A stretch of 64,000 nt of DNA, taken from positions 10,066 through 74,065 of the forward strand of contig NZ_KE386614.1 in assembly GCF_000428045.1 (NCBI RefSeq), written 5' to 3'. Both the position numbers and the translations under genes were made by a program. Positions 5,048 through 25,086 of this stretch are shown piece after piece. The notes under the pieces were generated by a model. That model was not told where the DNA came from and made no database searches. It saw nothing but the letters and a program-made list of their open reading frames with translations. The stretch's first letter is position 1; each line of letters begins with the position of its first letter. Origin of the DNA: Sedimenticola selenatireducens DSM 17993 (GTDB taxonomy: Bacteria > Pseudomonadota > Gammaproteobacteria > Chromatiales > Chromatiaceae).

Positions 5048-6695
5048 GCTTCTCTCTCGAATTGCGTATTGAGCGGCTCAGCAGGATCACCGGAATGATT
5101 CCCGCCAGGACTATGGTCAGGGCGGCACTGGCGGAATCCCGCAGCCGTTCGTCCGAGGCCAGCTCAAAGGCCCTGACCGCCAGGGTGTTGAAGTTGAAGG
5201 GGCGCAGCACCAGGGTGGCGGGCAGTTCCTTCATGACATCCACGAAGACCAGCAGCAGGGCGGTGAGCAGGCTTCCTTTCAGCATCGGCAGGTGGACCCT
5301 GTGCAGGACCTGTCCCGGTGAGGCACCCAGGGTGCGGGCGCTTTCGTCAATGCTCTGCTTGATCTTGCCCAGCCCCGCTTCCACCGTCTGCAGCGAGACC
5401 GCCAGAAAGCGTACCAGGTAAGCGAAAACCAGCGCCACCAGGGTGCCGCTCAGCAGCAGTCCGCTGGAGATGCCGAAGCGCGCGCGCAGCCAGCTGTCGA
5501 GGCTGTTGTCGATCCAGGCCAGCGGCAGCATGACGCCGACCGCAATCACCGTGCCGGGAACCGCGTATCCCATCCCGGCGACTCTGACGGCGGCAACGGT
5601 GCCCCGGTCGGAACTGAGCCGGCGGCCGTAACCCATCAGCAGAGCCAGTAGCAGGGCGAGCAGTGCGGTACCGGCGGCCAGCCCGACCGTGTGGAGTATC
5701 AGTTGCAGAAACTCACGGTCGATCATCTCCCGTGTTTCAATCGCCCACCACAGCAGTTGGCCGGCAGGCAGCAGGAAACCCAGAAACAGGGTGGTGGAAC
5801 AGATCAGCAGGGCACCGAGTTTCTGCCGTCCTTTCAGCACAAAGCCGGGCAGGGACTGGTGGCGCTGGCTGGAGTGGTGATAGCGCATCTTGCGCCGGGA
5901 CCAGCGTTCCAGCAGCACCAGGGTAAAGACAAACAGCAACAGCGCGGTGGAGAGTTGGGCGGCGGCGGCGCTGTCATCCATGCCGAACCAGGTGCGGAAG
6001 ATGCCGGTGGTAAAGGTGCCGATGCCGAAATACTGCACCGTGCCGTAGTCGGCCAGGGTCTCCATCAGCGCCAGGCTCAGGCCGGCGACGACAGCGGGTC
6101 TGGCGAGCGGCAGGGCCACCCGAAAGAAGGTGCGCCAGGGGCCGTTGCCGAGCGAACGGCTCACCTCCAGGACACAGACCGACTGCTCCAGAAAGGCGGC
6201 ACGGGAGAGCAGGTAGACATAGGGATAGAGGGTCAGTGACAGCATGCCGCCCGCGCCCCAGAGCGAGCGGATTTCCGGAAACCAGTACTCGCCGTAGTGC
6301 AGGCCGAGGCCTTCGCGCAGTGCCGTCTGAACCGGTCCGGCCACATCGAACATGCCGGTGTAGGTGTAGGCTATTATATAGGCGGGCATTGCCATGGGTA
6401 GCAGCAGTGCCCACTCAAAAACGCTGCGGCCGGGGAAGCGGCACATGGTGGTAAGCCAGGCGGTGGAGACGCCGATCAGCAAGGTGCCGATGGTCACTTC
6501 CAGCATCAGCAGCAGGGAGTTGCTGACGTAGTCGGTCAGCACGGTGTCGGCCAGGTGTCGCCACACCGCGCCGGCCGGGATCAGCGCATAGCTGGCAACC
6601 ACCAGCACCGGCATGGCCAGCAACAGGGCCGTGCCGATAATGCCGAGCCGCCATGACAGCGGTGCTGTCGCTCTCCTGTAGTTGCCAGATGCCAC
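5022..6695 (-). CDS. fbpB: Iron(III) ABC transporter permease, fused dimer type
   Basis: Inner-membrane permease of about 557 residues with two MetI-like halves and roughly 12 hydrophobic segments. EAA-type loops lie near VSRSLGNGPWRTFFRVALPLARP in the first half and DESARTLGASPGQVLHRVHLP in the second. I chose the GTG at 6695 (VASGNYRRAT), preceded by GGTGA. The frame stays open to a GTG at 6740, but that codon lies inside the strong hairpin at 6730-6760. It sits between fbpA and fbpC in one operon. Confidence 0.88.
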   Translation of the reverse strand: MASGNYRRATAPLSWRLGIIGTALLLAMPVLVVASYALIPAGAVWRHLADTVLTDYVSNSLLLMLEVTIGTLLIGVSTAWLTTMCRFPGRSVFEWALLLPMAMPAYIIAYTYTGMFDVAGPVQTALREGLGLHYGEYWFPEIRSLWGAGGMLSLTLYPYVYLLSRAAFLEQSVCVLEVSRSLGNGPWRTFFRVALPLARPAVVAGLSLALMETLADYGTVQYFGIGTFTTGIFRTWFGMDDSAAAAQLSTALLLFVFTLVLLERWSRRKMRYHHSSQRHQSLPGFVLKGRQKLGALLICSTTLFLGFLLPAGQLLWWAIETREMIDREFLQLILHTVGLAAGTALLALLLALLMGYGRRLSSDRGTVAAVRVAGMGYAVPGTVIAVGVMLPLAWIDNSLDSWLRARFGISSGLLLSGTLVALVFAYLVRFLAVSLQTVEAGLGKIKQSIDESARTLGASPGQVLHRVHLPMLKGSLLTALLLVFVDVMKELPATLVLRPFNFNTLAVRAFELASDERLRDSASAALTIVLAGIIPVILLSRSIRNSREKHDLSTGTE

Positions 6696-6720
6696 GGGTT
6701 CACCGCTACCGGAATGACTG

Positions 6721-6760
6721 AAACAAAAACTCAACGCCACCCATTGTGGATGGCGCTGAG
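6721..6760 (-). terminator. Intercistronic hairpin with T-tract between fbpA and fbpB
   Basis: On the minus strand CTCAGCGCCATCC and GGGTGGCGTTGAG form a 13-bp stem around ACAAT, followed by TTTTTGTTT. This is a rho-independent terminator shape. It would lower fbpBC expression relative to the binding protein, a common design in ABC import operons. Confidence 0.75.
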
Positions 6761-6830
6761 ACGCGGGAGGTTATTCTCTGGGGTTCGGCGCGATTGTGCA
6801 ATAGCAGTCCGGTCGCGCCTGCCGCAGGAT

Positions 6831-7847
6831 TTATTTCCAGCCGGCCCGGTCCATCAGCCGAACCGCGGCCGGGTTGTTCTCGCCCAGCAGTGAGAGGTTG
6901 AGCGTATCGGCCTTGAAGGTTCCCCACTGCTTCAGGGTCTCGGACCACTCCACTTCTGGTCGTACCGGATACTCCTGATTGACGCTGGCGTACCAGCCCT
7001 GGGCCTTTTTGCTGGCGAGGAACTCCAGCAACTTGACCGCCGCTTCCTTGTTCTTGGCGGAGCGGGTCACGCCGGCGCCACTGACATTGACATGGGCGCC
7101 CCGGTCATTCTGGTTGGGCCAGAAAAGTGCAACCTTGGCGGCGGCCGCCTGTTCGTTTTCGTCCTTGCTGTTGATCATGGCGCCCAGGTAGTAGGTGTTC
7201 ACGATCGCCAGATCACAGACGCCGGCTGCTGCCGCCTTCACCTGGTCCCGATCACCCCCCTTGGGGTCACGGGCAAAATTCTTCACGAAGCCGTCGGCCC
7301 ACTGCTGTGTGGTAGCCTCGCCATCTGCCGCAATCATGGAGGCTACCAGTGACTGGTTGTAGATGTTACCGGAGCCGCGAATGCAGATGCGGCCTTTCCA
7401 TTGCTCATCCGCCAGGGCCTCGTAGGTGGAGAGCTGTTTTGGATCCACCCGGTCCTTGATATAGGTGATCACACGGGCCCTTACAGAGAGTCCGTACCAG
7501 TACCCCTCGGGATCACGGTAGCTGGCCGGGATGGCGGCGTTGAGAGTTTCGCTGGAGGCCGGTTGCAGCACATCGGCTTCCTTGGCGCGATGCAGGCGCC
7601 CGGCATCGGTGGTGATAAACAGGTCAGCCGGGGAGTTGGCGCCCTCGGTTGTCAGTCGCTTCAACAGGGCATCTGCCTTGCCGGTGACCAGATTGACCTT
7701 GATGCCACTTTCGCTGGTGAACTGGTCCAGCAGTGGCTTGATCAGGGCCTCCTTGCGGGCTGAGTAGACATTCACCTCCGCCGCCAGTGCGTTGCTGCAG
7801 AGGGCAATGGCGGTGGCGAAGAGAGCTAGCTTGGAGCGGATGTTCAT
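6831..7847 (-). CDS. fbpA: Periplasmic iron(III)-binding protein
   Basis: Solute-binding protein of 338 residues delivering ferric iron to FbpBC. The start is the ATG at 7847 with GGAGAT upstream; it gives a clean signal peptide (MNIRSKLALFATAIALCSNALA) with cleavage before EVNVYSARKEAL. The NTYYLG motif contains the Tyr-Tyr pair that binds iron in the FbpA family, and GDRDQVKAAAAGVCDLAIVN precedes it. First gene of the fbpABC operon. A Fur-like palindrome upstream suggests iron repression. Confidence 0.92.
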   Translation of the reverse strand: MNIRSKLALFATAIALCSNALAAEVNVYSARKEALIKPLLDQFTSESGIKVNLVTGKADALLKRLTTEGANSPADLFITTDAGRLHRAKEADVLQPASSETLNAAIPASYRDPEGYWYGLSVRARVITYIKDRVDPKQLSTYEALADEQWKGRICIRGSGNIYNQSLVASMIAADGEATTQQWADGFVKNFARDPKGGDRDQVKAAAAGVCDLAIVNTYYLGAMINSKDENEQAAAAKVALFWPNQNDRGAHVNVSGAGVTRSAKNKEAAVKLLEFLASKKAQGWYASVNQEYPVRPEVEWSETLKQWGTFKADTLNLSLLGENNPAAVRLMDRAGWK

Positions 7848-7884
7848 CGGTTGGATCTCCAGGGGTTGTTGGTTATTGATGCGC

Positions 7885-7908
7885 ATTCTATTAAGAATCA
7901 TTCGTATT
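7885..7908 (-). promoter_or_regulatory. Candidate Fur-binding site upstream of fbpA
   Basis: Two overlapping inverted repeats, ATTCT-ATTA-AGAAT (7885-7898) and GAAT-C-ATTC (7895-7903), sit about 40-60 bases before fbpA. Read toward fbpA, GAATGATTCTTAAT resembles natural Fur boxes containing AATGATTCTCATT. The match is by eye only. Confidence 0.4.
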
Positions 7909-8070
7909 TTCAATAGGCATTGTCGTATTGATTCAAAAGGCGCTGTAGTAAAATGGAGATTAAGGTGACTGGAAGTTGGTGTCAGAGCGCCCTTTGAGTG
8001 ATTCGCCGGTCTGGCTGCCGTTATTGGCAAAGGGGTATTCAACAGGTATAGTCGACAACTCAATCCAAAC

Positions 8071-8148
8071 CACTGTGGGAGAGATCGGCCTTGGCCGACG
8101 CCGAAGGCGCAAACCGTCCGGAATCGCTCAGGCAGAAGGACCGCAGTG
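8071..8148 (+). promoter_or_regulatory. Glycine riboswitch, first aptamer
   Basis: P1 is formed by CACTG (8071-8075) and CAGTG (8144-8148). Inside are the conserved glycine-aptamer segments GGGAGAG, GCCGAAGGCGCAAACC and CGCTCAGGCAGAAGGACCGC. It binds glycine and works with the second aptamer just downstream. It lies in the leader of the gcv operon, which degrades glycine. Confidence 0.93.
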
Positions 8149-8176
8149 TGGGGAGGGGTGTCTCCTTCCGGGTTGA

Positions 8177-8256
8177 CTCTGGAGAGTGGCCGTCAGGCCC
8201 ACCGACGGGGCAGGGACCGATGATTTCGGTTTCAAACTCTCAGGTTCAGGACAGAG
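8177..8256 (+). promoter_or_regulatory. Glycine riboswitch, second aptamer
   Basis: P1 pairs CTCTG (8177-8181) with CAGAG (8252-8256). Conserved segments are CTGGAGAG, CCACCGACGGGGCA and AACTCTCAGGTTCAGGACAGAG. The linker from the first aptamer is under 30 bases, typical of tandem glycine riboswitches. The 3' strand of P1 abuts the terminator stem, so ligand binding can control termination. Confidence 0.93.
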
Positions 8257-8297
8257 GGGCGGCGCAGGGTGTGATCTCCTGCGCCGCCCTTTTTTTT
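8257..8297 (+). terminator. Riboswitch-controlled terminator before gcvT
   Basis: GGGCGGCGCAGG (8257-8268) pairs perfectly with CCTGCGCCGCCC (8278-8289) and is followed by eight T. It is the expression platform of the tandem glycine riboswitch. Glycine should favour read-through into gcvT by analogy with other gcv leaders. Confidence 0.9.
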
Positions 8298-8346
8298 GCC
8301 CGGAGATGGCCGAGTGCGGCCTTGTTTTTGACTGGTGGAGAATCCC

Positions 8347-9438
8347 ATGGGAAACAGAACCATCCTTTTTGATACCCATAATCAGATGGGTGCACGAATT
8401 GTCCCCTTCGGTGGCTGGGACATGCCGCTGCACTACGGGTCGCAGCTGGAAGAGCATCATGCCGTGCGCCGGGATGCCGGCATGTTCGATGTCTGTCACA
8501 TGACCGTGGTGGATCTCACGGGTGACCGGGTGCGCGCTTTCCTGCGCCACCTGCTGGCCAACGATGTGGAGCGTCTGCAGCAGCCGGGCAAGGCCCTCTA
8601 CAGTTGCATGCTGAACGAGCAGGGTGGCGTCATCGATGACCTGATCGTCTATTTTATGAATGAAACCTGGTTTCGCATGGTGGTCAATGCCGGTACTACC
8701 GAGAAGGATGTTGCCTGGCTGAAACAGCAGAGTCCGGCCTTTGGCGTTACCGTCAAGCCACGCCATGATCTGGCGATGATCGCGGTGCAGGGTCCCCATG
8801 CGCGACACAAGGCGCTGCCACTGTTGCCGGAAGGGCTGCGCGAGGCGGCGGCCAATCTTCAACCCTTCTTTGCGGCGACCGCGGCTGACTGGTTTGTCGG
8901 GCGTACCGGTTATACCGGCGAGGATGGCTTTGAAGTGGTGATGCCGGAGAGCGAGGCGGTTGGCTTCTGGCAGGCGCTGGCGGATGCCGGCGTGCAACCC
9001 TGTGGCCTGGGCGCACGGGATACGCTGCGCCTGGAGGCCGGCATGAACCTGTACGGGTCCGATATGGACGAAACCATCTCGCCCCTTGAGGCGGGCCTGA
9101 ACTGGACCATCGCCTGGGAACCGGCTGATCGGGATTTTATCGGCCGCTCTGCCATTGAGGCACACAGGGGCGATCCCGCAAACCGCCAGTTTGTCGGTCT
9201 GGTATTGATCGGCCGGGGTGTGTTGCGCGACCATCAGAAGCTCTTTGTCGCAGATCGGGAGGTCGGGGAGATCACCTCCGGCGGATTTGCGCCTACACTG
9301 GAGAAATCCATTGCCCTGGCACGGGTATCCGCGGAAGTGGCCGGACAGTGTGAGGTGGAGATCCGGGGCAAGCGGGTTCCGGCCAGGCTGGTGCGTCCGC
9401 CGTTTGTACGCAATGGCAAGATACGGGTCGAACTTTAA
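8347..9438 (+). CDS. gcvT: Glycine cleavage system T protein (aminomethyltransferase)
   Basis: Transfers the aminomethyl carbon from lipoyl-GcvH to tetrahydrofolate, releasing ammonia. It has 363 residues starting [24 protein letters not shown]. The ATG at 8347 is preceded by GGTGGAG. Family hallmarks are the early DVCHMT segment, [15 protein letters not shown] and [18 protein letters not shown]. First gene of gcvT-gcvH-gcvPA-gcvPB, under the tandem glycine riboswitch. Confidence 0.95.
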
Positions 9439-9503
9439 GTGCCGGCCGGTAAGCGGAAAATTTCAAAATAACAACCTGATTAGCAACTAGCGAGGGTCTA
9501 GAG

Positions 9504-9899
9504 ATGAGCAATGTACCCAATGATCTGAAATACGCCAAAAGTCACGAGTGGGTACGTGATGAAGAGGATGGCACGGTGTTTGTCGGCATCACCGAGCATG
9601 CCCAGGAGCTGCTGGGTGACCTGGTTTTTGTTGAGCTGCCCGAGGTGGGTGATACGGTCGATGCCGGCAGTGAGTGCGCCGTGGTGGAATCGGTCAAGGC
9701 CGCATCCGACGTGTACAGCCCGGTGTCCGGTGAAGTGATAGCGATCAATGAGGCCCTGGCGGATGCACCCGAGACGGTCAATCAGGACGCCTTTGGTGAT
9801 GGCTGGCTGTTTCAGGTCAAGCTCTCCGCTCCGGCCGAGCTGGACGACTTACTGGATGCCGATGCCTATAGCGAAGTGATGGAATCGGAAGAACACTGA
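9504..9899 (+). CDS. gcvH: Glycine cleavage system H protein
   Basis: Lipoyl carrier shuttling the methylamine group between P and T proteins. The 131 residues are the usual length. Lys65 in [19 protein letters not shown] is the lipoylation site, and the family start KYAKSHEWV is present. It follows gcvT after 65 bases and precedes gcvPA by 16, so it is part of the same operon. Confidence 0.97.
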
Positions 9900-9915
9900 G
9901 AGGGCTCAGAGAGAC

Positions 9916-11313
9916 ATGCCATTTATCCCCCATACAGAACAAGAGGTGCAGGAGATGCTGGCAGCCATTGGTGCTGCCTCTATCGATGACCTGTTCGATG
10001 AGATCCCGGCCAGCCTGCGACTCTCCCAGCTGGATGCCATACCCAGCGCGTTGTCAGAGATGGAGATTGAGCATCTGATGAACAAGCGCGCACTCCAGGA
10101 TGGGCAGCCGGTCTGCTTCCTGGGGGCCGGTGCCTACGATCACCATATACCGGCGGCGGTCTGGCAGATCACCACCCGGGGCGAGTATTACACCGCCTAT
10201 ACGCCCTACCAGGCCGAGGCGAGCCAGGGCACGCTGCAGCTGCTATACGAGTTCCAGTCCATGATGGTGGCGCTGACCGGCATGGATGTCTCCAATGCCT
10301 CGCTCTATGACGGCGCCTCGGCCCTGGCCGAGGCGGTGTTGATGGCGGTGCGAGCCAATCGCAAGTCCAAGTCCAAGCGTATCCTGATGCCCAGAACAGT
10401 GCATCCGGCCTATCGACGGGTGGTGCGCAATATTGTCAAAAACCAGCAGATCGAGTTGGTGGAGCTGCCGTTCGACCCACATGGCGGACATACTGATCCG
10501 GCCGTGCTGGAACAGTATCAGGGCGAGGATTTCGCTGCGCTGGTCATCCCCCAGCCCAATTTCTTCGGGGTGCTCGAGGAGGTGGACGCCCTGACCGACT
10601 GGGCGCATGCCAACGGCGCCCTGGCGATTGGCGTGGTCAACCCCCTGGCCCTGGCGCTACTGACCCCGCCGGGAGAGTGGGGCGAGCAGGGTGCCGACAT
10701 CTGCTGTGGCGAGGGGCAGCCGCTGGGTGCGCCGCTCTCCTCCGGTGGTCCCTACTTCGGCTTCCTCTGCTGCAAACAGGCACAGGTGCGGCAGATGCCG
10801 GGGCGCATTATCGGGCGTACCGAAGATCTGGATGGCAAGGTGGGCTATACCCTGACCCTGCAGGCCCGTGAACAACATATTCGCCGCTCCAAGGCGACCT
10901 CGAACATCTGTACCAATCAGGGTCTGATGGTCACTGCGGCGACCATCCATATGGCGCTGCTGGGCAGCGAAGGCCTGGAGCGGGCGGCGGCCGCCTGTTT
11001 TGGGAATACCGGTAAACTGGTAGACGCCCTGGGCGCTATTCCCGGGGTGACGCCGCTGTTTGATCGGCCTGCCTTCCATGAGCGGGTGCTGCGATTGCCG
11101 GCGCCGGCAGGCAGTGTGTTGCGTTCCCTGGCGGCCCACAATGTGCTGGGGGGGCTGGATATGTCGCGCGACTATCCGGAGCTGGGCGATGCCATCCTGG
11201 TCTGTGCCACCGAAAAGCGGACCGAAGACGAGATCGCCGCCTATGCCGAGAAACTGGCCCGGGTCATCCAGCTGCAGGGTGGTGTCACCTGCGGTCTGGT
11301 ACCGAAAGAGTAA
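9916..11313 (+). CDS. gcvPA: Glycine dehydrogenase (decarboxylating) subunit 1
   Basis: N-terminal half of the P protein as a separate 465-residue subunit. It begins [19 protein letters not shown] and contains the expected [27 protein letters not shown] and [14 protein letters not shown] segments. The split from subunit 2 is genuine: there is a proper stop, then a gap with GGAG before the gcvPB ATG, and no frame slippage is needed. Together the subunits decarboxylate glycine using PLP bound by GcvPB. Confidence 0.95.
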
Positions 11314-11330
11314 TCTGGAGAATCTGCAGC

Positions 11331-12785
11331 ATGCTAATTTTTGAACAATCCAAAAGCGGACGCTATGCCCCGGCGCAGTCGCCTCTCGACAAGGCGGATC
11401 TCAGCAGCCTTCCCGAGCAGTTTCGGCGCAAACGGTCTGCCGCCCTGCCGGAAGTCTCCGAGATGCAGGCGGTGCGGCATTACACCCGCCTGTCGCGCAA
11501 GAATTTCTCCATCGATACCCAGTTCTACCCCCTGGGTTCCTGTACCATGAAGTACAACCCGCGTGCCTGCAACAGTCTGGCCAGTCTGCCGGGGCTGGTG
11601 TCGCGCCATCCGGAAGCGCCGGAGAGTCATAGCCAGGGCTTTATGGCTTGTATGTACGAGTTGCAGGAGATGCTGCGTGAAGTGACCGGCATGAAGGCGG
11701 TGTCGCTTAGTCCCGCGGCCGGTGCACAGGGTGAGTTTGCCGGGGTGGCCATGATCCGCGCCTACCATGAAGCGCGGGGCGATAGCGCCCGCTGCGAGAT
11801 CCTGGCACCGGATGCGGCCCATGGCACCAACCCGGCGACAGCGGTGATGTGCGGCTACAAGGTGCGCGAGATCCCCACCGGGCCGGATGGCGATGTGGAT
11901 CTGGAAGCACTTAAGGCAGTGGTCGGGCCGCAGACGGCCGGCATCATGTTGACCAATCCCTCCACGCTGGGGGTATTTGATCGAAAAATCGAAGCCATAG
12001 CGAAAACGGTGCATGAAGCGGGCGGGCTGCTCTATTACGATGGTGCCAACCTGAATGCTATCCTCGGCAAGGTCCGTCCCGGCACCATGGGCTTTGACGT
12101 CATCCACATGAACCTGCACAAAACCTTCTCCACGCCGCATGGCGGTGGCGGACCGGGTGCTGGCCCGGTGGGCGTAAGCGAGCGTCTGGTGCCCTATCTG
12201 CCAGTGCCGATGGTGACCAGGGACGGCGATCACTACCGCTGGCTCACGGAACAGGATTGCCCAGAGAGTATCGGCCGCCTGACCGCCTTTGCCGGTAACG
12301 CCGGGGTGCTGCTGCGCGCCTACGTCTATGCCCGGATGCTGGGTCGTGAGGGGATGCCACGGGTAGCAGAGTTCTCCACCCTGAACGCCAACTATATGCT
12401 GAAGCAGTTGCAGTCGATCGGTTTTCAGGCGGCCTATCCACAGCGTCGTGCTACCCATGAGTTCATTATCACGCTGAAAAAACAGGCCAGGGAGCTGGGG
12501 GTCAATACCATGGACTTCGCCAAGCGACTGCTGGATTACGGCTTTCACGCACCCACCACCTATTTTCCGTTGCTGGTACCGGAGTGTCTGTTGATCGAAC
12601 CAACCGAGACAGAGGATAAGGCGACGCTGGATGGGTTTATCGATGCCATGGGCCGTATTCTGGAGGAGGCGAAGGAAGATCCCGAGATGGTCAAGGGGGC
12701 GCCCTACACCTTGCCGGTGAAACGTCTGGATGACGTCAAGGCGGCGCGCGAACTGGATCTGGCCTGGCGGCCGGGGTCTAATTAA
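11331..12785 (+). CDS. gcvPB: Glycine dehydrogenase (decarboxylating) subunit 2
   Basis: PLP-containing subunit of 484 residues. [13 protein letters not shown] and [11 protein letters not shown] match the family. The cofactor lysine is in [18 protein letters not shown], followed by the glycine-rich loop. The start ATG lies 17 bases after the gcvPA stop with GGAG upstream, and the stop abuts dgkA directly. It forms the P-protein with gcvPA. Confidence 0.95.
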
Positions 12786-20975: not shown

Positions 20976-20995
20976 TGCCCCGCATAAGCGGGGCA
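20976..20995. terminator. Hairpin between convergent genes
   Basis: TGCCCCGC-ATAA-GCGGGGCA is a perfect 8-bp stem between the acyltransferase gene and the DsrE gene. No T-tract follows on either strand, so termination efficiency is uncertain. Confidence 0.5.
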
Positions 20996-21012: not shown

Positions 21013-21450
21013 TCAGGGCCTTACATAGGCGTAGCCCCGCTCCTGCAGTTCCATCAGCCGCAGCACGCCGGCCTCCACCACAGTGACACCTTCCAGCAAT
21101 GCCGGCATTTTACCGGTCTTCTTTTCTATCCCTATCATGGTGTTGCCGCAGGCACTGAACTGGATATCCTGCATGGCCAGGCTGGTAATCCGCTGGCCCT
21201 CCTTGGAGTTGCTGGTGAGCATGCCGAGACCGGGACCGTAGGCGATGATCTCGATCTGCACATTATCCTGGCCCAGCGCCTTCTGCAGATTGACGGCGTT
21301 GTTCAGGGCAATGGTCTGGGTGCGGGGGTCATCGGTACTGACCTGGATTACCACCTTGTGCGGGGCGCCTTCTGCCGCCAGCAGGGTCTGTCCGGTGAAC
21401 AGGCCGAAAAATAGCAGCAGGGCCATCAGGCTGTGGTTGATTGTTTTCAT
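21013..21450 (-). CDS. Secreted DsrE-family protein
   Basis: Protein of 145 residues with a signal peptide (MKTINHSLMALLLFFGLFTGQTLL, then AAEGAPHK), so it is probably periplasmic. The rest is a DsrE/DsrF-like fold: VVIQVSTDDPRTQTIALNNAVNL, IEIIAYGPGLGML and the only cysteine in FSACGNT (Cys101). It is homologous to the C-terminal half of the upstream anti-sigma protein; both keep the cysteine 45 residues from the end and finish GxAYxR/K. GAGAGGAT precedes the ATG. Third gene after the ECF sigma factor and its anti-sigma. A sulfur carrier or sensor role is inference. Confidence 0.8.
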   Translation of the reverse strand: MKTINHSLMALLLFFGLFTGQTLLAAEGAPHKVVIQVSTDDPRTQTIALNNAVNLQKALGQDNVQIEIIAYGPGLGMLTSNSKEGQRITSLAMQDIQFSACGNTMIGIEKKTGKMPALLEGVTVVEAGVLRLMELQERGYAYVRP

Positions 21451-21545
21451 TGATTATCCTCTCTTTGGTTTGATGCCTGCAGCAGCGGTTTTTTTTGATA
21501 TCGGCCGCTTTGTTGCAGATGGGTTGCAAGGATCTGATTCACTGT

Positions 21546-22265
21546 TCAGACCTTGATATAGGCCCAGCCGGTCTGCTGGCGCCGGGTGATATAGGAGACC
21601 CCGGAGCGGATGATCACCGCCTCGGGCAGTATCTGGATCTGCTCACCGGTCGCTTTGGTCAGGCGTTCCAGGGTGCTGCCGCAGGCCGCAAAGACCAGGT
21701 TCGGGTAGGTCTCACTCAGTTGGCGGATACGCTCAGGGAAGGGCGAACGATTCCGTTGCATCAGACGCAATCCCTGGTTATTGGCCACCACCTCGAGACG
21801 CAGCGGTCTGCCGCTGGCACGATGCTCCTTCAGTACCAGTTCCACCTGGTCCAGCAGCAGGGCGGCATCATCCCGGTTGTCACTGCTGATATGGAATACC
21901 ACCCGGGTCTGGGCTTGCTGCATCCGGTCCAGCGAGGCCAGTGGTTTCTGTGCCGATGTCGCCCCGGAGGGTGCCTGGTCAGTCATGCTGTGAACGGCAA
22001 ACAGGGAGAGCGCGCCCATTGCTGCCGCTGCCAGGTAGCGGGTGAAGCCCCCGCCGGTCCAGGCACGGGTCTGCTGGCGGGATGGCTGCCCGGTGAGTGG
22101 GTAGGCTGCACGGGTGAGTGCCTTCAGGTACTGCAGCTGTACGAGACGGCTGCGCAGGGGATCTGAGTCAGCCGCAGCCTGCAGTATCTCAAGCTGCTCG
22201 GCCTGGGACAGCTCATGATCAATAAAGGCATTCAGCTGTTCATCACTGAAGTGAAGTTCACTCAT
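21546..22265 (-). CDS. Anti-sigma factor fused to a DsrE-like domain
   Basis: Protein of 239 residues with three parts. Residues 1-70 (SDEQLNAFIDHELSQAEQLEIL) look like an anti-sigma domain but lack the HxxxCxxC zinc site. A single transmembrane helix follows (YLAAAAMGALSLFAVHSM). From about 115 to the end there is a DsrE-like domain with the only cysteine at 195 in FAACGST. The topology predicts a cytoplasmic anti-sigma domain and a periplasmic DsrE domain. It overlaps the sigma gene by 4 bases and precedes the homologous secreted DsrE protein. Function is inferred from architecture. Confidence 0.75.
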   Translation of the reverse strand: MSELHFSDEQLNAFIDHELSQAEQLEILQAAADSDPLRSRLVQLQYLKALTRAAYPLTGQPSRQQTRAWTGGGFTRYLAAAAMGALSLFAVHSMTDQAPSGATSAQKPLASLDRMQQAQTRVVFHISSDNRDDAALLLDQVELVLKEHRASGRPLRLEVVANNQGLRLMQRNRSPFPERIRQLSETYPNLVFAACGSTLERLTKATGEQIQILPEAVIIRSGVSYITRRQQTGWAYIKV

Positions 22266-22807
22266 TTCACACGCTCCAGGAATGGCCGGTTGCCGGGCTT
22301 ATTGCCGTGGGCAGGCGTTATCAGTTGTTTCAGGTTCTGCCTGGCTCGGCTTAGTCGGCTCATTACGGTGCCGACCGGGATGTCCAGAATATCGGCCACT
22401 TCGGTATAGCTGCAGGCCTCCAGATCAACCAGCATCAGCACCTCGCGCTGATCCGGCGTCAGTCGGCCGATGGCCTGTCGTACCTGGTTGGTGGTCTGTT
22501 GTTGCGCAAGCTGTTCATCGGCGCTGGAAAGGGATTGATCGATACACTCTTCGAATTGATCGGCCGGTTTATGACGTCGGCAGTGATCCCGGAAACAGTT
22601 GGCCAGTATGGAAAAGACCCACCGCTCCAGCGCCTTGTCATCCTTGAGTGTATCCAGTCGGGAGAGGGCCCGGGCCAGCGCTTCCTGTGACAGATCTTCC
22701 GCCAGGCTCTGCTCACCGCACCAGGCCAGCGCCAGCCGCCGGAGCCGGGGACTCAGTGCCGCCAGGCGCTGTCGGTTTTTACTCGCTGTACGCCATGTGG
22801 TGAACAT
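22262..22807 (-). CDS. ECF-type RNA polymerase sigma factor
   Basis: Sigma factor of 181 residues with region 2 (AEDLSQEALARALSRLDTLKDDKALERWVFSILANCFRDHCRR) and region 4 (LTPDQREVLMLVDLEACSYTEVADILDIPVGTVMSRLSRAR), separated by an acidic linker and without regions 1 or 3. It is followed by its probable anti-sigma factor with an ATGA overlap. A GGAATAAA...CGTCCTA element 33-61 bases upstream looks like the self-recognised promoter. Its target genes beyond this operon are unknown. Confidence 0.9.
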   Translation of the reverse strand: MFTTWRTASKNRQRLAALSPRLRRLALAWCGEQSLAEDLSQEALARALSRLDTLKDDKALERWVFSILANCFRDHCRRHKPADQFEECIDQSLSSADEQLAQQQTTNQVRQAIGRLTPDQREVLMLVDLEACSYTEVADILDIPVGTVMSRLSRARQNLKQLITPAHGNKPGNRPFLERVK

Positions 22808-22839
22808 GAAGCCTGGTCCCTTTTTTTCGCCATTGTGGG

Positions 22840-22868
22840 TAGGACGCGGTAGCCGGTGGATTTATTCC
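22840..22868 (-). promoter_or_regulatory. Candidate ECF-dependent promoter of the sigma operon
   Basis: On the minus strand GGAATAAA (22861-22868) is separated by 14 bases from CGTCCTA (22840-22846). A GGAAT-type -35 and a CGTC-type -10 are characteristic of ECF promoters, and the position fits autoregulation of the sigma gene at 22807. I saw no second copy of the exact GGAATAAA element in the window. Confidence 0.5.
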
Positions 22869-22965
22869 ATGTTTTTCAGGACGCTGAAAATCCCAACAGT
22901 TGCCGGCCATTGAGGCGGAGATTGTTGGCATAACCTGTGCGTTGCTACGGGCCCGCGCCCGAGGG

Positions 22966-25086
22966 CTACTCCCGGAACCGCTTGAACGAGCCAACGGCGC
23001 CATCGAACTGCTGACTCCCGTCGCCCGCGGCCGCTTCACCGCGGGCCAGCGCGCGCTCGAATGCTTCGAAGTCGTGGATCGGTGCCTCGCAGTGGGAGCC
23101 GTGACAGAGATAGGCGATGCAGCCGTCGCCCGCCGACTTGATGCCCAGTGCCTCCGGCAGATCGCTGGCCGAGCTGGGTATGGCGAAGCTGATCCGGCGT
23201 GGGGCATAGTGCTGATTCGCCCGCTTGAACCAGGGTTGCAAGGCCGCCTCATCGCCGCGCAGGATAATCACCTCGGTGGGGTTGATCAGCTCATCCAGCG
23301 CCTTGAGCATGGTGCAGTAGGCGTGGGGGATCTGTTTCAGGTGCTCCCAGGTGCAGTGCAGGGTGCGCTCGGCTGCATGCAGGTAATGCGTCTCGCCCAG
23401 CAGGTGGCCGAGACGGGTCAACACGGACGCGGCAACACCGTTGCCGGCCGGAATCGATTCATCGCCAAATGGCTTGGGACGGTAGATCAGCGTCTCATGG
23501 TCATTAGAGGTGAAGAAGAAGCCACCTTGTTGCTTGTCTTCAAACCGCTCCAGCATGATATCGGTAAGTTCGGTGGCGAATGCCAGCAGCCGGCTGTCCC
23601 ACTGAGCCTGCAACAGCTCCAGCAGGGCGTCGATCAGGTTGGCGTAATCATCCAGATAACCGTTCAGATTGGCCTGGCCATCCTTGCAGGAGACCAGCAG
23701 GTGCCGGTCGCGCCACAACTGCTGCTGAATGAATTCCACCGCCCGGCGGGCCGAGTTGATCAGCGTCGGCTCGTCCAGCAGCCGTCCGGCCCGCGCCAGC
23801 CCTTTGATCATCAGGGCGTTCCAGGTGGTGAGGATCTTCTCGTCACGCCCGGGGCGTACCCGTTTTTCCCGCTGTTTGAGCAGTTTCTGGCGCGCCTGCT
23901 CCAGTAGCTGACGCGCCTGCTCCGAGCTGCTGCCCAGTTCGCTGTTCAAGGTGGCGACATCGGTATAGCCGTGCAGATGCCACAGGCCTTCAAAATTAGG
24001 CTCCTGGTCCAGGCCGTAATAGCGGCTGAAATGACGGTATTCATTCTCGCTCAGCAGCTGCTTGATTTCGCTCCGGTCCCAGGCGTAGAAGCGTCCTTCA
24101 TGGCCCTCGCTGTCGGCGTCCAGGGAGGAGTAAAAGCCCCCCGCGGGGGATTGCATCTCGGTCATCACCCAGCGGGCGGTGTTCAGCGCCGTCTCCCGGA
24201 ATAGCGGTTTGCCGGTGGCCTGCCAGAGGTCGGTATAGAGGCTGAGCAGTGGCCCGTTGTCATACAGCATCTTCTCGAAGTGGGGGATCATCCATCGGCT
24301 GTCCACCGAGTAGCGGCAGAAACCGCCGGCGAGCTGGTCGTTGATGCCGCCGAGTGCCATTCGGGTCAGGGTAAAGTCCACCATGTAGAGAGAGCGGGGA
24401 TCGCTGGTGCCGGTGGCCGCCCAGTGCCTGAGCAACTGCTCCAGGCTGCTGGGGTGGGGAAACTTCGGTGCGTTGCCAAAGCCGCCGTAGCTCTCGTCAA
24501 AACTGCTGGCCAACTGCTGGCGGGCGGTCTCCAGTGGTGCCGAATCGAGTGGCACGGCCTTGCCGGGAGCAATCGGATCGAGTTGATTGATGGCGCGGAT
24601 CAGTGCCTTGTTCTGTGCCTGGATATCTTCCCGTTGTTGATGATAGGCGTTGGCGATGTTGTGCAGGATCTCGCTGAACGACGGCATGCCCTGGCGTGGC
24701 TCCCGAGGGAAGTAAGTACCGGCAAAGAATGGTGTCTGGTCATCCGGGGTCAGGAACACCGTGAGCGGCCAGCCGCCGGGACGCTGGGCCAGCAATTGAT
24801 GGGCTGACTGATAGACCCGGTCCAGGTCGGGCCGCTCCTCCCGGTCCACCTTGATGTTGACGAACAGCCGGTTCATCACCTCGGCGGTGGCATCGTCCTC
24901 AAAGGATTCATGGGCCATCACATGGCACCAGTGGCAGGCGGAGTAGCCGATGGAGAGCAGGATCGGTTTGTCCTCCTGGTGGGCTTTTTTCAGCGCCTCC
25001 TCGCCCCAGGGGTACCACTCCACCGGGTTGTCGGCATGTTGTTGCAGATAGGGGCTGGTGCAATCGCTCAGACGGTTTGCAGGCAT
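22966..25086 (-). CDS. DUF255 thioredoxin-like protein (YyaL/SSP411 family)
   Basis: Cytoplasmic protein of 706 residues, no signal peptide. The N-terminal 160 residues form the DUF255 thioredoxin-like domain with [16 protein letters not shown], the family CxxC-type motif, and [14 protein letters not shown]. The remainder is an alpha/alpha-barrel like N-acylglucosamine epimerases ([31 protein letters not shown]). The family is widespread, including in eukaryotes, and its reaction is not established. It appears to be a single-gene unit. Confidence 0.88.

Follow-up and report, generated by a model that had tools for sequence, protein, structure and literature searches.

A candidate sulfur-sensing switch in Sedimenticola and related bacteria: an extracytoplasmic function sigma factor paired with a DsrE-bearing anti-sigma factor

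The window analysed here is a stretch of 64,000 nucleotides from Sedimenticola selenatireducens DSM 17993, a bacterium with a genome of 4.59 Mb. Between positions 21013 and 22869 its minus strand carries, in transcription order, a promoter motif, a gene for an extracytoplasmic function (ECF) sigma factor, a gene for an anti-sigma factor that ends in a DsrE-fold domain and a gene for a secreted DsrE paralogue. We consider it likely that this operon represents an autoregulated ECF/anti-sigma switch of sulfur oxidisers, in which the DsrE domain senses sulfur species via its cysteine. The family of fusion proteins bears on the question of how sulfur oxidisers perceive extracytoplasmic sulfur; the link of the family to sulfur is well supported, and the fusion itself probably serves to sense such sulfur.

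The anti-sigma/DsrE fusion and its family

The anti-sigma gene (21546..22265, minus strand) encodes 239 amino acids, and residues 119-239 (21549..21911, minus strand) form a DsrE-fold domain predicted to lie outside the cytoplasm. A profile of the anti-sigma protein matched PDB entry 1l1s (MTH1491) with an E-value of 2.3e-13 over residues 119-237, a broader profile reached 1.4e-20, and a Foldseek search with the AlphaFold2 model returned the same entry (E 9e-10, template modelling score 0.90 by target). Within the DsrE part of that model the mean predicted local distance difference test score was approximately 72-86 per block. The secreted paralogue (21013..21450, minus strand; 145 amino acids) behaved likewise against 1l1s, with 1.2e-13 by profile and 9.7e-11 by Foldseek, and its N-terminus resembles a signal peptide of about residues 1-25, modelled as a helix at 6-24. 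The two DsrE sequences are homologous to each other (28% identity, E 7.4e-8; phmmer 1e-9). Both the DsrE-like character of the C-terminal half and its kinship with the secreted protein had been proposed in a first-pass annotation made from the letters of the window, and both are borne out. The Pfam DsrE model gave no match to the window anti-sigma protein at E ≤ 1 and scored 0.0022, below its curated cut-off, on the secreted protein; Pfam is thus blind to the DsrE domain of the window anti-sigma protein, and Pfam alone would have missed the fusion. The fold, found by profile and by Foldseek, is accompanied by a second feature of the DsrE/DsrF-like family, a conserved cysteine at a strand end before a helix.

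Each of the two proteins has a single cysteine, Cys195 in the anti-sigma factor (codon 21681..21683, minus strand; motif FAACGST) and Cys101 in the secreted DsrE (codon 21148..21150, minus strand; motif FSACGNT). In the models both end a strand just before a helix, and both align with a cysteine of 1l1s and of 2pd2. The cysteine is kept in all 85 fused and all 80 separate DsrE domains that were aligned, and each of the 85 fusions has exactly one cysteine in its last 122 residues. As had been remarked from the single locus, the cysteine in FxACGxT is followed by 44 residues in both proteins and is therefore the 45th residue from the end; the equal distance results from gap-free homology and is not a separate coincidence. 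Chance agreement of the two positions was ruled out, as they are homologous in the alignment. Across the 85 relatives the number of residues after the cysteine is 44 in 51, 43 in 26 and 45-46 in 7, while the remaining protein (L165) falls beyond the checked distance range and shows its cysteine in the alignment.

The N-terminal portion of the anti-sigma factor comprises a predicted cytoplasmic domain of residues 1-56 (22098..22265, minus strand) with three helices, which the AlphaFold2 model places at 8-15, 21-32 and 35-54. It is followed by a single membrane helix of about residues 73-91 (21993..22049, minus strand), recognised as a hydropathy peak in a stretch of about 73-95 and modelled at 73-89; the model was built on 8 sequences, and its confidence is low in the membrane stretch and the linker. 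A hydrophobic stretch (17-residue mean ≥ 1.34) occurs in 85/85 fusions. The HxxxCxxC zinc motif was found in none of the 85 fusions, the window protein included, so that identity as a zinc-binding anti-sigma factor was ruled out; the hydrophobic stretch and the lack of the zinc motif are in this way shared by the window protein and the family. In the Pfam scan the window protein matched zf-HC2 only weakly (0.084), and among 19 relatives scanned, zf-HC2 matched at E ≤ 0.1 in 8 (best 3.5e-6) and RseA_N in 2 (best 0.012). With its three modelled helices and these weak matches, the N-terminal portion is a candidate Class I anti-sigma domain (ASD-I), and its binding of the sigma factor is putative.

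The ECF sigma factor gene (22262..22807, minus strand; 181 amino acids) matches Pfam Sigma70_r2 (9.5e-12) and Sigma70_r4_2 (2.4e-17), that is regions 2 and 4 only, both above cut-off, and also TIGR02937 (sigma70-ECF, 8.5e-26), again above cut-off. Further features in keeping with the ECF group are the adjoining anti-sigma gene and a putative promoter of its own with ECF-like -35 and -10 elements, a motif obtained by comparison. The start codon (ATG) of the anti-sigma gene shares 4 bases with the end of the ECF gene including its stop codon, and the secreted dsrE begins 95 bases beyond the end of the anti-sigma gene. The anti-sigma protein is 72% identical to a protein of S. hydrogenitrophicus, and the closest named relatives at the locus are Sedimenticola species.

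A total of 85 distinct full-length fusions in 83 loci was assembled from the loci of close relatives, 93 searched relatives and 60 regions around the stronger matches in 369 genomes of the class Gammaproteobacteria; loci that occurred identically in two collections were kept only once. The search used the anti-sigma profile only, hence an ECF neighbour was not asked for; by a spacing rule, an ECF gene nevertheless lies directly upstream of 82/85 fusions. For the other three, the locus is cut by a contig end (L036), the ECF frame falls outside the spacing limit (L119), or no ECF frame was found at the locus (L051). A separate dsrE gene occurs within 3 kb of 62/85 fusions, being divergent upstream only in 32, co-directional downstream only in 24 and in other or several positions in 6; among these separate relatives, secretion was checked for the window DsrE only. 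The arrangement of ECF gene, anti-sigma/DsrE fusion and DsrE paralogue described for the window is conserved beyond it.

All 85 fused DsrE domains group in a single clade (support 0.93) that excludes the separate domains and has a contig-truncated fusion as its only further member, which points to a single fusion event at the origin of the family. A full-length fusion (model position ≤ 12 to ≥ 236) was present in 66 of the 369 class genomes, among the matches listed, the genomes belonging to 40 families; split or partial forms in G147, G314 and G319 were not counted as fusions. In a sample of the phylum, 19 of 398 genomes matched at E ≤ 1e-20, and the fusion was full-length in the window's own genome and in two others of the same class only. 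The other 16 matches of the phylum sample cover the DsrE part only, some with a preceding stretch, and genomes outside the class (L234-L242, for example) match stretches such as model positions 68-240 or 53-240, without the anti-sigma domain. Three class genomes (G137, G189 and G261) hold three full-length fusions each, among the matches listed.

Sulfur-oxidation genes and the promoter motif

The fusion co-occurs with genes of sulfur oxidation. Among the matches listed, soxB was found in 65/66 fusion genomes compared with 85/303 others, dsrA in 52/66 compared with 63/303, and at least one of the two in 66/66 compared with 95/303. Calls were made at E ≤ 1e-100, the soxB of G156 and the dsrA of G243 being fragments below the family cut-off; the uncounted partial fusions G147 and G319 have soxB, and G314 appears in the dsrA list only. 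The near-universal soxB and the lack of dsrA in 14/66 fit an extracytoplasmic signal; Sox acts in that compartment (PMC12423496). The first-pass annotation had guessed at a sulfur connection from one locus and had proposed a genome search for the fusion with the ECF gene and sulfur-oxidation genes; that search now sets the connection at the level of the family.

A promoter motif, TGGAATAAATCCACCGGCTACCGCGTC, was located by comparison of upstream regions before the ECF gene (22843..22869, minus strand; G000:C8:32908-32934). The form common to the family, derived in the same way, reads GGAATA-N15/16-C(G/A)TC. It is present in 74/83 distinct ECF upstream regions, mostly with spacers of 15 or 16, against a mean of 0.14 and a highest value of 1 in 50 shuffles, and in 31/65 dsrE upstream regions, against a shuffle mean of 0.15. 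Both counts also allowed G as the first -10 base and were compared with dinucleotide shuffles, and the 83 regions include that of the second ECF gene of L046, which is motif-free. A strict form of the motif, counted over 48 fusion genomes, gave 67 matches, compared with 18 for the reversed pattern. The ECF factor of the locus presumably reads this promoter, which would fit autoregulation.

The motif also stands at sox genes. Surroundings of soxB were examined in 30 fusion genomes, chosen for the most part in the order of the soxB list, and in 10 genomes without the fusion. The motif lay no more than 350 bp upstream of one of the genes soxX and soxB in 11/30 of the former and in 1/10 of the latter. 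Two of the 11 (G207 and G318) had already been seen by the strict-motif scan, and without them the count is 9/28. Controls at the sox genes gave 0 for the opposite strand and shuffle means of at most 0.05. Sites of the strict form lie before soxX in G207 and G223 and before soxB in G207 and G318. In G212 and G322, two genomes of one genus, the order ECF-anti-sigma-soxX-soxY-soxZ-soxA-soxB runs along one strand, and a sulfur island of G223 comprises the ECF pair, sox genes and two separate dsrE, one following soxB and the other paired with a porin, along with genes for a thioredoxin-type protein and a YeeE-like sulfur transporter. Here the Sox set of G223 and SoxB of G322 were named by NCBIfam equivalogs, SoxB of G212 by the soxB search, the transporter of G223 by Pfam Sulf_transp and the rest by phmmer.

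A dsrE gene is situated at the end of the sox set at 8624-9067 of L185 (G223) and at 10829-11404 of L201 (G067), in the latter case after soxX-soxY-soxZ-soxA. The DsrE group at the ends of sox sets is probably a periplasmic partner of Sox, judging by gene position. These genes bear on an alternative in which sensing or sulfur carriage proper would fall to the secreted DsrE. The fused domain would then be a docking site or decoy that reads the loading of the secreted protein by DsrE-DsrE contact, and the secreted protein, as a product of the regulon, would close a feedback loop. Such a division of labour would agree with the separate dsrE genes near 62/85 loci, with the promoter copy of their own in 31/65, with the dsrE genes behind sox genes in G067 and G223, and with the fact that DsrE relatives form oligomers. 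The 23 loci without a nearby separate dsrE argue against it, as does the single cysteine kept by the fused domain in 85/85 cases, which would be needless for mere docking. We regard this alternative as rather unlikely.

A number of observations weigh against a sulfur-sensing switch with the sox genes among its targets. The 23/85 fusion loci without a separate dsrE within 3 kb have been mentioned, and 19/30 fusion genomes lack the motif at soxX or soxB in the examined stretches; only 15 of these 30 stretches contained a recognised soxX. One genome, G121, has the motif before soxX (L295, position ~1867) and no full-length fusion was found there; an assembly gap (about 220 contigs), loss of the fusion, or another ECF factor with the same promoter may account for it. 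As to co-occurrence, G314, whose partial fusion at a contig end was left uncounted, is absent from the soxB list, and the Fisher p of 5e-29 overstates the independence of the genomes, which are related (40 families). Relatedness explains part of the co-occurrence with soxB, and hardly the whole of it.

The window's own genome provides the remainder of these opposing points. There GGAATA-N15/16-CGTC had 12 matches compared with 17 for the reversed control, another form of the motif had 5 compared with 2, and the motif stood before neither of the two sox loci examined. A second ECF pair (L180, G000:C13:93000-112000, at 6048-12448), with a zinc-type anti-sigma factor (zf-HC2 2.7e-7), is divergent from an operon of porin-soxX-soxA-soxY-soxZ and a cytochrome-type protein, and could be the sox regulator in this genome. 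The strict form TGGAATAA-N14/15-CGTC occurs at two sites, one at this operon and one ~70 bp ahead of the gene for a small cytochrome c on contig C33, with 1 in the control. The second site was not seen in four other Sedimenticola genomes (G001, G002, G003 and G008) and may have arisen by chance. With a relaxed -10 element, no target was common to all five Sedimenticola genomes except the operon itself, and a site common to G002, G003 and G008 reads like coding sequence. A regulon predicted by motif in this genome was dropped, the matches of GGAATA-N15/16-CGTC not exceeding the reversed control. Here the motif speaks for control of no more than this operon, whose autoregulation is the firm prediction; from lineage to lineage the regulon has probably shifted around an unchanged sensor.

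Porins form a further group of neighbours. A divergent porin gene is near the ECF pair in 30/83 loci, 26 of which also have dsrE, and two of the four porin loci without dsrE have the motif directly before the porin. The representative of these porins has matches to the families Porin_4 and Porin_O_P. A related gene of the window's own genome, named by 41% identity to the representative and without a Pfam match at 0.01, is the first gene of the porin-soxX-soxA-soxY-soxZ operon, in which SoxA was named by Pfam and soxX, soxY and soxZ by similarity to the G223 Sox set. The 30 porin loci, the two with the motif directly upstream among them, and the lack of the motif at sox in the window's own genome would suit an envelope or porin regulator that merely resides in sulfur oxidisers and whose DsrE domain is structural only. 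That explanation is very improbable in view of soxB in 65 of the 66 fusion genomes among the matches listed, the motif at sox genes, the position of the porin relative at the head of a sox operon, and the invariant cysteine.

Proposed mechanism and known systems

In one-helix anti-sigma factors, N-terminal helices bind the sigma factor inside the cell and a C-terminal domain reads a signal outside. By analogy, the N-terminal helices of the fusion would bind the ECF factor inside and the DsrE domain would read a signal outside. We suggest that the DsrE cysteine would meet or lose a sulfur species, alone or together with the secreted paralogue through a presumed contact between the two DsrE domains, and that the sigma factor would then be freed, by proteolysis or by a conformational change. 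The freed sigma factor would transcribe its own operon and the secreted dsrE, an outer-membrane porin in many lineages and, in some members of the family, sox genes. The secreted paralogue probably belongs to this regulon and may act either as a carrier for loading the sensor or as a competitor, with a feedback loop in the latter case.

The DsrE fold, the invariant cysteine and the presence of soxB or dsrA in 66/66 fusion genomes, among the matches listed, make a sulfur species the natural signal. The likeliest would be sulfane sulfur or a persulfide from the oxidation of thiosulfate or sulfide, with sulfite as the second choice since the nearest studied ECF systems answer to sulfite (PMC6527743). 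The most specific version that we put forward is tentative, and we give it somewhat less than an even chance: the cysteine of the membrane-bound DsrE domain would take sulfane sulfur from SoxYZ, from polysulfide or from the secreted DsrE as carrier, and its persulfidation would release a dedicated ECF factor, which would induce sox, the secreted DsrE and a porin serving sulfur compounds.

The signal could instead be sulfite, or the general thiol-reactive or oxidative stress arising alongside sulfur oxidation, with the cysteine as a redox or sulfite-adduct site. Passages of PMC6527743 describe SmRpoE4 and SnSigE, the nearest ECF systems with sulfur genes, as answering to sulfite, and the thioredoxin-type DUF255 protein encoded immediately ahead of the ECF gene in genomes of the same genus and in G049 would also be in keeping with such a signal. 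However, SmRpoE4 and SnSigE control sulfite-oxidising enzymes, whereas here some members of the family have the motif at soxX or soxB, and DsrEFH binds sulfur through a conserved DsrE cysteine, as stated in a passage of PMC6620896. On balance a sulfite or stress signal appears unlikely.

SmRpoE4 and SnSigE (ECF26) resemble the system proposed here as ECF/anti-sigma pairs that answer to a sulfur compound and control enzymes of sulfur oxidation. They differ in being Alphaproteobacterial, in their sulfite signal and in their sulfite-oxidising enzyme targets, and the text of PMC6527743, which describes them, makes no mention of DsrE. The ECF factors of PMC3445524 likewise alter the transcription of sox genes; unlike a dedicated sulfur switch, they affect many other genes, and DsrE is not mentioned in the text of that paper. 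A cysteine-based sensing of sulfane sulfur with sulfur-responsive control of sox is found in SoxR/sHdrR and SoxT1B of Hyphomicrobium denitrificans (excerpts of PMC12423496 and PMC11582611), where, in contrast, the regulators are cytoplasmic ArsR-type repressors and a membrane protein passes the signal inward. The proposed sensor domain of the window system would lie outside the cytoplasm and act through a sigma factor. MTH1491-type DsrE proteins (PDB 1l1s), the best match of both window proteins, share the fold and the conserved cysteine but are single-domain proteins with no known control of a sigma factor. To our knowledge the outer domain of RsiV is unrelated to DsrE; the RsiV-sigma V pair is comparable in that the anti-sigma factor is a direct ligand receptor, its ligand being lysozyme (PMC4183432, in part).

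ECF/anti-sigma systems are known as such, and for a DsrE sensor domain on an anti-sigma factor no description was found in the literature searched, judged by titles and a few passages. The operon is not named in the portions seen of PMC3445524, PMC6527743, PMC7406223, PMC8788666, PMC11582611, PMC7787665, PMC6620896, PMC12423496 and PMC10512742, and the system may be listed as an unnamed group in the ECF reclassification of 2021. If the most specific version given above is true, direct sensing of extracytoplasmic sulfur in Gammaproteobacteria would replace the logic of import followed by derepression in SoxT and SoxR. One promoter motif and a single candidate sensing residue make the question of sulfur sensing testable, and the system hints at what a group of secreted DsrE proteins and a porin family may do.

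Neighbouring genes and further arrangements

Two loci, L128 and L130, contain two tandem ECF/anti-sigma-DsrE pairs flanked on both sides by separate dsrE genes. A metallophosphoesterase or 5'-nucleotidase-like protein is encoded near the fusion in 4 loci, for example at 2286-4460 of L122, where the protein is related to SoxB (TIGR04486 1.8e-51, below its cut-off).

Directly upstream of the ECF gene in the window, on the same strand, lies a gene for a DUF255/thioredoxin-type protein (22966-25086; 9.4e-75), and a gene of this type adjoins the ECF gene also in the same-genus genomes and in G049. On the other side of the operon, a hairpin of the form GCCCCGC-ATAA-GCGGGGC at 20977-20994 is placed between the convergent ends of dsrE and the neighbouring gene and looks like a two-way terminator.

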